Source: Radicibacter daui (GTDB taxonomy: Bacteria > Pseudomonadota > Alphaproteobacteria > Radicibacterales > Radicibacteraceae). Taken from it: a DNA stretch of 64,000 nucleotides. Below the pieces are notes generated by a model, which did not search any database, was not told the DNA's origin, and saw nothing but the letters and a program-made list of their open reading frames with translations. Made by a program: the position numbers and the translations under genes. Positions within the stretch are counted from its first letter, which is position 1, and the number at the start of each line of letters is the position of its first letter. Of the stretch, positions 48,316 through 52,148 are shown in pieces. The DNA lies in NCBI GenBank assembly GCA_030657355.1, contig CP131056.1:3678501-3742500 (forward strand), written 5' to 3'.

Positions 48316-48454
48316 AAACAGGTCCGATGGCGACGGGAACGAGAGGCAGCAGCTAACCGGCCTGACGAAGCAAACGCAAGACACCCAAAGATTGCGACCT
48401 ATGCGTCATTTATTTTGAGATTAATTCTCCATTTACGACGCCCCGTTATAATTA

Positions 48455-48471
48455 ACGGAATCAAATTCCGT
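48455..48471. promoter_or_regulatory. Inverted repeat and TATAAT upstream of the beta-helix gene
   Basis: ACGGAAT-CAA-ATTCCGT is a perfect 7-base dyad 24 bases before the ATG at 48495. Just upstream, TATAAT (48447-48452) lies between CCGTTA and TAACGG, a further short dyad. The A/T-rich 80 bases here contrast with the rest of the window and look like an operator-bearing promoter; no clear -35 box was found. Confidence 0.45.
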
Positions 48472-48494: not shown

Positions 48495-51400
48495 ATGAAC
48501 CTGCCGCTACAGCAGTCTCCCGATATTGCCACCTTCTGGGTCTCACCGTCCGGTGACGATAACGGCCCCGGCACACGCGACGCTCCTTTCCGGACATTGG
48601 CTCACACCCATTCGCAACTTTGCCGCCGCGCCGAAGCCGCTCCGCCTGAAAGTGCGATCACGGTCATCCTCGAGGACGGGACTTATCCGGTTTCCGCTCC
48701 TCTGGTCTTTGACCCCGGGCTGTTTGGGCCGACCGGCCCGAAAGTGCGTTTTACTGCCGCGGATGAGGCCGCCCCAACAATCTCGGGCGGGCGACGGATC
48801 ACCGGCTGGACGCTCCATGATGCTGCCCGCAACATCTACACCGCCCCGGCCCAGGGCCTGCGTACGCGCCAGCTCTACATCAACGGCCAGCGCGCCACGA
48901 GAGCCGCCACATCGATACCGGAGGGTGGCATTCCCGCCGGCTTCCGCCCCACCCCCATCCTCCCGGACCCGCCACCGACACGTGATGATCCCTATGTGAT
49001 CGGGGGCGGCATCGATTTTCTTCCCACCGACATCAACCCTGCCGGCTGGCGCGACCCGGCCAGCTGGTGCCGCCCTGCACAGGTGGAAGCGGTCATCGAG
49101 ACACAATGGAAGATGATGCGCCTTCCCGTTCGCTCGATCACCGCGGCGAACGGCACCACGCCCGGAACTATTGAGCTGGCCCAACCTGCCTGGACCAACG
49201 CCAATCTGGCGTTCACAAGTTCCAGCCCCCAGAACGGCGCCCCGCCCGTCGAAGCGCCCGGCATCTGGAGTTTCTGGCAGGTCACCCGCTTTGAAAATGA
49301 CTACAGCTTCCTCGATCAGCCGGGCGAATGGGTACTGGATACCGAAGCAGATGCCCTGTTCTACATCCCGCGACCGGGCGAGGACCTGTCGATTGCCGAG
49401 GTCATCGCCCCGGCGATCGAGCTCCTGATAAAGGCCATCGGGCATGAAGACCGGCCTGTCTGCGGACTTTCCTTCGAGGGCATCGGCTTTTCCCATGCGA
49501 CCTGGAACGCCCCGAGTGACGATGACGGGTACGTTGTAGACCAGAGCGGATTTCACCTGCGGGGAAACCGGCATCGCCCGAACCTCACCGGGCATTCGCG
49601 ATATGTCGACCGCACACCCGGCAATCTGCGGTTTGCCTATGCACAAGGCATAAACTTCAACCGTTGCCGTTTCGAGCATCTGGGTGCCGTCGCGCTCGAT
49701 TTCGACACCGGCAGCCAGGGGTGCCGGATTACCCGGTGCAGCTTTGACGATATCGCCTCCGCCGCAATTCAGGTCGGCGGCATCGCAGCCTGCGATGTCA
49801 GCCCGACGCCGGCGGGGCATACCCGCGACACCGTGATCACCGACAACAGGATCCGGCGCACCGGCCGTGACTATGTCGACACTGCCGCGATCTATCTCGG
49901 CTTCACCACCCGCAGCACGGTAACCAATAACACCATCAGCGAGGTCCCCTGGTCCGGCATCGCGCTCGGTTGGGGGTGGGGCCTGCTCGATCCGGGCAGT
50001 TACCCCGGCATTCCCAACGCCAAATCCGGGATGTGGGGCGTTCATACCGGTCCAACGGTCAATTGCGGCAACCAGGTTTCACGCAATCACATCTCCCGTT
50101 TCCTCGAAACATTGTGGGATGGCGGCGCGATCTATTGCTGCGGCTGGCAGGGAAACTCCTTCGACGATGCGCTGCGGATCGAAGGCAATGTTGCCTGCGA
50201 CAAACGTCCGGGGGCCGGCGGCAATGTCCTCTATACCGATGGCGGCAGCCGCTATGTCATCGTCCGCGGCAACGCCCTGTTCGATAACCCCATTGGCCAC
50301 GTCTATCTCGGGCCGCCGCCGCATCCGGGCGATCCGCTCAGCTATAACAGCCTGCCGAGCACGCTCAACGGCGTGCCTTATGGCGGCGATATCGGCGGCT
50401 GCCGCACCTATGGTGATATCCGCTACGAAGATAATTACTGGGCAACCGGACTTCAGCCGGCTGAGGAAGTCGCGATTGATGTAGTCGAGGAGATCATCAG
50501 CACACTCTTCACCGGAACCAGCTTCGATACCTATTCTCCGGAGGGCTTTTTCGACATTTGCCCCTATTCGGCGAATGGCACCTCCTTCCCCACTGGTCTC
50601 GTCTTCACCGGAAATCACGCGCTCCCGCTCGGTCGGCTTCAGGTTCCACAATCCATCCTGCAGAACGCGGGGGTGCGCAGCGACAATGACGCGGCCGCCA
50701 ACTATGTGGCAACCGGTACCGGACCGCAGGGAGGCGGAGCCTCCTTTCCGCCGCGTTATCCGGGGCCGAGTTGGTCGGTACCACGCGTATCGCTGCCAGG
50801 GCTCTTTGGCATGCAGCCGCAATATGCCCAGGAGTGGTGGTATTATGTCGGGGTCATAGAAACCAGCCTCGGCGAGCTGTTCAGCCTTCACATCCAGATC
50901 GGGCGGTTCGATGTCGGCCTGCAACTAGGGCTGGGGCTCACCGGCATCGGTTGGCGGGACGAGAGGCACGGCTCCTGCTATCTCAGTGGCGAAGGGGTTG
51001 GTTTCGGCGTCTCCAGTTCTCCCTGGCTGCCCGCGGCCGGGGTAATCCCGCCGGTAAGCGATACCGCCTACAGCGCCTCCCTGCGCCCCTTGCTTGAAGT
51101 TGTCGGACGGTCCCCGGATCTGGCCCGTGACCTCCACCTCAACCTGCCCTGGATCGGCTCCTCGCAGGGCTGGCAGTTCGAGTATGATGTGAGCGCCTCG
51201 GATGGCGCGCCGGTTGGCCTGCCCGGCTCGCGTTACACGCTTTCTGCCCAGGGGCAGGGGCTGATTGCGACCGCCGACACGGCCACTACCCGCCGGGCTG
51301 GATATGCAGTGACGCTCGACGTCACCGATTTTCGCGGAACGGTGATGGAGGGACTGTCGGCTTATGTCGGCCCGGAAATGTTCGCGGATGGCGGCATCGG

Positions 51401-52148
51401 GCTTTCCTCCTATGAATGCGCGCAGCCGGTACTGCGCATTGCTACAGGAACGCTTGCCATCGATGGCGAGGAGCATCTGATCGCTGGCGGCACGCTCTGG
51501 CTCGATCGCCAGATGCTCGCCAAGAGTGTCGCAAACAGCACTGCTTCCGATCAGGGCACGGACGGAACCCGGCGCCAGCCGGGCAAAGGCTGGGTTGCCG
51601 CACTGCGCGGCAACACGCCAAGCTCTCGCCCGCTCTATCTCGGCGACTGGATCGCCGTCACGCTTGATGACGGGCATTCGCTTGCCCTGGCCGAGTTCTG
51701 GCAGCCCTCCACGCCGCAATGGATCACCGGCACGGGTGTCGGCAAGCCGCCGAAACATGGTTTCGGCAATCTCTATTACCCGCTCGACCGGAGGGTGCCG
51801 CAAGGCAATGGCGGCCTTGCCCTTACGGCAAGGACCGCACAATCCGGAGAGGATTGGGACTTCGACCTCAACATACTCACCCCCGCAGACCCGGCTCACT
51901 CGCCGCACTGGAGATCGCCGGCATCGGGCAAGACCTATGCAACGGCCTGGCGAATTGATTTCGCCCCCCGCGCCCAACGTCATGGTCTGCCCCCGGCGCT
52001 TTACCTGCGCACGATCAGCGAGAACTGCGAAATCATCCCGGCCACGCCCGACGGAGGATTTTTCGAGGGAGCGGCACTCGTCTATGCCGACAGCGCTTTC
52101 GAGCACCGTCTCGGCCATGCCTTTGTCGAGCAGATGGGTTTTAACTGA
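48495..52148 (+). CDS. Large two-domain protein: right-handed beta-helix plus AttH/CrtC-like lipocalin domain
   Basis: 1217 residues with a strong GGAGGGAGGGG site. The start FWVSPSGDDNGPGTRDAPFRT and repeated short strands (ITRCSFDDIASAAIQVGG, VTNNTISEVPWSGIALGWGW, VSRNHISRFLETLWDGGA, IRYEDNYW) through residue ~720 form a right-handed parallel beta-helix of the polysaccharide lyase/hydrolase kind. From residue ~779 (QEWWYYVGVIETSLGELFSL) to the end the pattern fits the AttH/CrtC (carotenoid 1,2-hydratase-like) lipocalin fold, with GDWIAVTLDDGHSLALAEFW later on. There is no signal peptide. Neither a substrate nor a catalytic set can be named. An unusual fusion; a divergent GNAT gene lies upstream. 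Confidence 0.8.
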   Translation: MNLPLQQSPDIATFWVSPSGDDNGPGTRDAPFRTLAHTHSQLCRRAEAAPPESAITVILEDGTYPVSAPLVFDPGLFGPTGPKVRFTAADEAAPTISGGRRITGWTLHDAARNIYTAPAQGLRTRQLYINGQRATRAATSIPEGGIPAGFRPTPILPDPPPTRDDPYVIGGGIDFLPTDINPAGWRDPASWCRPAQVEAVIETQWKMMRLPVRSITAANGTTPGTIELAQPAWTNANLAFTSSSPQNGAPPVEAPGIWSFWQVTRFENDYSFLDQPGEWVLDTEADALFYIPRPGEDLSIAEVIAPAIELLIKAIGHEDRPVCGLSFEGIGFSHATWNAPSDDDGYVVDQSGFHLRGNRHRPNLTGHSRYVDRTPGNLRFAYAQGINFNRCRFEHLGAVALDFDTGSQGCRITRCSFDDIASAAIQVGGIAACDVSPTPAGHTRDTVITDNRIRRTGRDYVDTAAIYLGFTTRSTVTNNTISEVPWSGIALGWGWGLLDPGSYPGIPNAKSGMWGVHTGPTVNCGNQVSRNHISRFLETLWDGGAIYCCGWQGNSFDDALRIEGNVACDKRPGAGGNVLYTDGGSRYVIVRGNALFDNPIGHVYLGPPPHPGDPLSYNSLPSTLNGVPYGGDIGGCRTYGDIRYEDNYWATGLQPAEEVAIDVVEEIISTLFTGTSFDTYSPEGFFDICPYSANGTSFPTGLVFTGNHALPLGRLQVPQSILQNAGVRSDNDAAANYVATGTGPQGGGASFPPRYPGPSWSVPRVSLPGLFGMQPQYAQEWWYYVGVIETSLGELFSLHIQIGRFDVGLQLGLGLTGIGWRDERHGSCYLSGEGVGFGVSSSPWLPAAGVIPPVSDTAYSASLRPLLEVVGRSPDLARDLHLNLPWIGSSQGWQFEYDVSASDGAPVGLPGSRYTLSAQGQGLIATADTATTRRAGYAVTLDVTDFRGTVMEGLSAYVGPEMFADGGIGLSSYECAQPVLRIATGTLAIDGEEHLIAGGTLWLDRQMLAKSVANSTASDQGTDGTRRQPGKGWVAALRGNTPSSRPLYLGDWIAVTLDDGHSLALAEFWQPSTPQWITGTGVGKPPKHGFGNLYYPLDRRVPQGNGGLALTARTAQSGEDWDFDLNILTPADPAHSPHWRSPASGKTYATAWRIDFAPRAQRHGLPPALYLRTISENCEIIPATPDGGFFEGAALVYADSAFEHRLGHAFVEQMGFN

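Follow-up and report, generated by a model that had tools for sequence, protein, structure and literature searches.

Few GH141 glycosidases have been characterised, namely an alpha-L-fucosidase acting on rhamnogalacturonan-II, a xylanase, and endo-fucanases, and they have been studied as carbohydrate-only enzymes. BT_1002 of Bacteroides thetaiotaomicron (5MQP), about 620 residues long, consists of one GH141 enzyme and has no lipocalin; its D523 is the putative nucleophile and its D564 the putative general acid/base (PMC10154630). The double lipocalins of the AttH/CrtC type include AttH, a partner of ABC transporters, NE1406 (2ICH), whose calycin signature consists of Trp50 and Arg214 (PMC2954199), and the CrtC hydratases (PF07143 plus PF17186), which have the catalytic tetrad His239, Trp241, Tyr266, and Asp268 (PMC4717167).

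Analysing a window of 64,000 nucleotides from Radicibacter daui, we found that a single gene joins members of these two families. The sequence-only reading of this DNA had known of no protein that combines the two folds, and a GH141 domain with an AttH/CrtC lipocalin is likewise not described in the literature found, within a collection of limited journal coverage. Two known families are here paired in a new way; the fusion represents neither a new fold nor a new system.

A conserved but very rare fusion

The gene and its parts are as follows, in window coordinates.

48495..52148, + strand: complete gene for the 1217-aa fusion of GH141 and AttH/CrtC lipocalin, lacking a signal peptide (full-length homologue L002; dN/dS about 0.29)
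48531..50639, + strand: GH141-like right-handed parallel beta-helix glycosidase domain, residues ~13-715, with the GH141_M insertion at 195-293 (PF21231; 5mqp)
50640..50789, + strand: linker, residues ~716-765, with GGGASFPPR and PGPSW, kept in both fusions (66% identity)
50790..52145, + strand: AttH/CrtC-type double lipocalin (calycin) domain, residues ~766-1217 (hhalign; L002 passes the PF07143 and PF17186 cutoffs)

The open reading frame proposed at 48495-52148 is uninterrupted in the genome, running from an ATG preceded by GGAGGG through 1217 codons with zero internal stops, and the matches detailed below make the two-domain architecture almost certain. A second fusion, L002 from Sphingomonas sp. 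MAG BIN5, was the sole other match when 84,980 species genomes were scanned with short peptide patterns, a method that would miss more divergent fusions. It covers residues 13-1217 with an ORF of 1188 aa that has no internal stops and whose ATG is the first possible start, and it is 63-65% identical to the window protein across both halves and the linker. Values of dN are 0.29 for the helix and 0.28 for the lipocalin, with dS about 1.0 for each, giving dN/dS of about 0.28-0.29 in both; by this measure, the two halves are under equal purifying selection. Given this identity and this equal constraint, the fusion is a real protein, conserved as a unit. A chance read-through, a sequencing error, or a decaying fusion of two unrelated genes would fit the finding of only two carrier genomes in the searched samples, but the existence of a full-length homologue in an independent genome, with intact frame and constrained codons, refutes this account, whose probability we put close to nil.

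The survey of domain architectures found the full fusion in these two genomes only, with samples from the class (386 genomes), the L002 family (299), and the L002 genus (201), so the co-occurrence of the two folds is very rare. Any match at all was seen in 36 of the 201 genomes of the genus sample, nearly always to the GH141 half alone. Viral contigs and phages yielded no relatives, and plasmids yielded none when searched with the lipocalin half and only GH141-half matches when searched with the whole protein. Two kinds of long frames were considered as further fusions and rejected: those at CrtC hits (L059, L063) were read as chance frames across neighbouring genes, and in those of sphingomonad GH141 proteins (such as L085-L088), the match stops about 75-80 residues before the frame end, with the extra length lying upstream and little space left for a lipocalin.

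The N-terminal half matches GH141 glycosidases

The beta-helix recognised earlier at residues ~10-720 was correctly called, and the more precise name for it is a glycosidase domain of family GH141. The N-terminal half contains GH141_M (PF21231; E 1.8e-7, 31.6 bits against a cutoff of 27), while the Pfam Beta_helix match stays below threshold, and its best solved structure by sequence is that of BT_1002 (E 7e-49), to which residues 13-594 are related, including the insertion domain and both essential Asp residues.

50118..50120, + strand: D542, counterpart of D523 in BT_1002, putative nucleophile (alignments; role from PMC10154630)
50238..50240, + strand: D582, counterpart of D564 in BT_1002, putative general acid/base (alignments; role from PMC10154630)

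D542 and D582 align with residues 528 and 569 of the 5MQP chain, a constant offset of 5 from D523 and D564 that probably reflects an expression tag, the chain having 624 residues and the enzyme being numbered to 619 in the review. Both catalytic columns are Asp in 20 of 20 aligned GH141 sequences. Since the GH141 match is accompanied by retention of both Asp residues, the domain looks catalytically intact, and we consider it very probably an active glycosidase. It differs from BT_1002 in the region ~600-715 and near the catalytic Asp pair, where the fusion has a CCGWQ insert after AIY and TDGG in place of DEGS.

Sphingomonas and Streptomyces GH141 proteins share about 30-35% identity with the fusion across the beta-helix and have both catalytic Asp residues; unlike the fusion, they possess signal peptides and lack the lipocalin. 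When 20 GH141 halves are placed on a tree, the two fusions stand together on a long, deep branch, apart from the sphingomonad and Streptomyces groups.

The C-terminal half matches AttH/CrtC double lipocalins

The lipocalin half, as a two-sequence profile in hhalign, matches 19 AttH/CrtC-family proteins end to end (E 6.1e-16 over 332 columns), spanning both barrels (columns 12-481). Controls with the reversed profile, the column-shuffled profile, and the beta-helix half are not significant (E 0.05-0.6), and the match persists after deletion of the EWWY region (E 5e-12) and with the window sequence alone (E 1.6e-10). By itself, the lipocalin half of the window protein scores weakly with Pfam CrtC and Lipocalin_9, below both cutoffs; the corresponding half of L002 exceeds them, with 40.6 bits for PF07143 CrtC (cutoff 22.5) and 26.3 bits for PF17186 Lipocalin_9 (cutoff 26.2). 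The controlled profile match and the L002 Pfam matches thus bear out the AttH/CrtC-like assignment made for residues ~779-1217. EWWYY begins at residue 780, and both positions of the calycin signature are kept.

50838..50840, + strand: W782, counterpart of Trp50 in the NE1406 calycin signature, strand 1 (alignment; PMC2954199)
51507..51509, + strand: R1005 (in WLDRQ), counterpart of Arg214 (in WLDREW) in the NE1406 calycin signature, last strand of the first barrel (alignments; PMC2954199)

The full-length profile match and the EWWY and WLDR motifs are shared with NE1406 and the CrtC hydratases, from which the fusion lipocalin differs in being about 20% identical and ~100 residues longer and in sitting behind a glycosidase without a signal peptide. 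AlphaFold2 models from the two-sequence alignment, with few related sequences, are of low confidence (pLDDT 30 for the lipocalin half and 27 for residues 18-1217), so the beta-helix and two-barrel folds are predicted by homology.

The lipocalin half could itself be an enzyme, namely a hydratase, cyclase, or isomerase of the kind of CrtC or the fungal Diels-Alderases, so that the fusion would catalyse two consecutive reactions on a single natural product. Fungal lipocalin-like Diels-Alderases are akin to AttH. They are mentioned in PMC9701702 and PMC9055775, and the CrtC hydratases belong to the same Pfam family as this half (PMC4717167). When the CrtC tetrad is placed by spacing, an inferred and not a computed correspondence, Asp268 seems kept as D1004 of the WLDR motif, but Tyr973, Cys975, and Trp1002 occupy the places of the His, Trp, and Tyr. 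Because only the Asp seems kept, the tetrad is not evidently retained and the label of carotenoid hydratase is not warranted for this half. Family members fused to isoprenoid enzymes, described below, would suit an enzymatic lipocalin; against it, the gene does not adjoin a biosynthetic cluster. On balance, we regard this possibility as unlikely.

Lack of an export signal

The sequence-only reading had found the absence of a signal peptide odd for such a fold, and this absence holds and is common to the L002 fusion. Peak leader hydropathy, a simple measure and not a trained predictor, is 1.65-2.7 in stand-alone GH141 relatives and -0.13 and 1.20 in the two fusions. The stop-to-stop frame of the window gene has only 1224 codons, allowing at most 7 extra residues, so no signal peptide has been missed upstream, and L002 has no earlier start codon. 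By contrast, a hydrophobic leader ends before the domain in the stand-alone GH141 relatives examined (sphingomonads and Streptomyces), and a stand-alone AttH (L019) has both a typical leader and an adjoining ABC-type permease; the fusion has neither signal peptide nor transporter neighbours. Exported proteins thus occur in the groups to which both halves are assigned by homology, but the fusion is without an export signal, and it is probably cytoplasmic.

Alternatively, the protein might be an ordinary polysaccharide-degrading GH141 enzyme that leaves the cell by non-classical export, with the lipocalin as an ancillary module for substrate binding or envelope attachment. Known substrates of GH141 enzymes are poly- or oligosaccharides (PMC12786026, PMC10154630), and Streptomyces proteins carry fn3 and F5/8-type C modules where the fusion has its lipocalin, an analogy with discoidin and fibronectin modules that would make the lipocalin one more appendage; two such GH141-like proteins, L083 and L084, are plasmid-borne and have these modules at the C-terminus. 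However, the Streptomyces relatives have signal peptides and both fusions lack them, polysaccharide-utilisation genes do not adjoin the window gene, and the adjacent and numerous conserved cysteines, a weak argument, fit a reducing compartment. We consider this account improbable.

Genomic context and upstream region

The window gene is flanked by an acetyltransferase gene (GNAT, - strand) and purB (+ strand), and the L002 gene by those for an aldehyde dehydrogenase and an S10 peptidase. The proposed survey of homologue neighbours could be carried out by comparing the two loci, which share no neighbours, and it gave no conserved neighbourhood pointing to a substrate. A shared aldehyde dehydrogenase neighbour was considered and rejected, the nearby aldehyde dehydrogenases being only 28% identical.

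No CrtC-family protein reaches threshold in the window genome. Squalene/phytoene synthase genes, which are common and non-specific, are present in both fusion genomes; in the window genome, three such family genes adjoin one another (L094, L095, L097; G000:C1:2377595-2380145). Elsewhere, an alphaproteobacterial protein (L038:1113-3257, + strand) has a CrtC/AttH lipocalin at its N-terminus, fused to a polyprenyl synthetase; its gene adjoins a geranylgeranyl-reductase-like gene, and a signal peptide is not evident. In another protein (L069:490-2400, - strand), a carotenoid biosynthesis domain (PF04240, Caroten_synth) stands ahead of a complete CrtC/Lipocalin_9 pair. These fusions of the lipocalin family to a polyprenyl synthase and a carotenoid-synthesis domain favour isoprenoids as ligands.

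48443..48471, no strand: two overlapping dyads in an A/T-rich leader, possible operator (sequence scan; CGGAAT-N3-ATTCCG unique in the genome)

Of the A/T-rich promoter with two dyads noted earlier, both dyads are real and perfect (ACGGAAT-N3-ATTCCGT at 48455-48471 and CCGTTA-N4-TAACGG at 48443-48458), but a simple scan of the leader found no sigma-70-like site, and its role as a promoter is presumptive. The dyad core CGGAAT-N3-ATTCCG (48456-48470) occurs once in the whole 5.06 Mb genome; a regulon could not be drawn because it is absent elsewhere. The L002 leader is without an equally compact dyad.

A possible cytoplasmic deglycosylating protein

The explanation we favour, tentatively, is that the protein is a cytoplasmic GH141 glycosidase and that its lipocalin half accommodates a hydrophobic ligand or aglycone, perhaps an isoprenoid. 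The beta-helix would hydrolyse a glycosidic bond by means of the D542/D582 pair, and the double lipocalin would bind a hydrophobic molecule. This would most likely be the aglycone, a lipid or isoprenoid, of that substrate or of its product, so that the lipocalin would bring a lipid, terpenoid, or carotenoid in glycosylated form to the active site or retain it after deglycosylation. That the lipocalin half handles the hydrophobic aglycone of the same substrate comes close to an even call; the fuller scheme, in which the protein deglycosylates a glycosylated isoprenoid or other lipid and then carries or converts it, with the lipocalin as aglycone-binding module, is rather doubtful.

Consistent with the favoured explanation are the GH141 membership, the catalytic Asp residues, the controlled lipocalin match, and the equal constraint on the halves, all as read from sequence, as well as the missing signal peptide, set against the leaders of stand-alone GH141 proteins and the AttH L019, the lipocalin fusions L038 and L069, and the squalene/phytoene synthases of both genomes. 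Against it stand the lack of a conserved neighbourhood pointing to a substrate, the CrtC tetrad not being evidently kept, the polysaccharide and oligosaccharide nature of known GH141 substrates, and the commonness of squalene/phytoene synthases, which makes them unspecific.

Few ligands of AttH-type lipocalins are established, and fusion to a glycosidase gives a hint that the ligand is glycosylated; conversely, the lipocalin partner hints at a hydrophobic aglycone for a GH141 glycosidase. Each half lends itself to separate expression and assay. Inside the cell, the fusion may remove sugars from fatty or pigment-like compounds.
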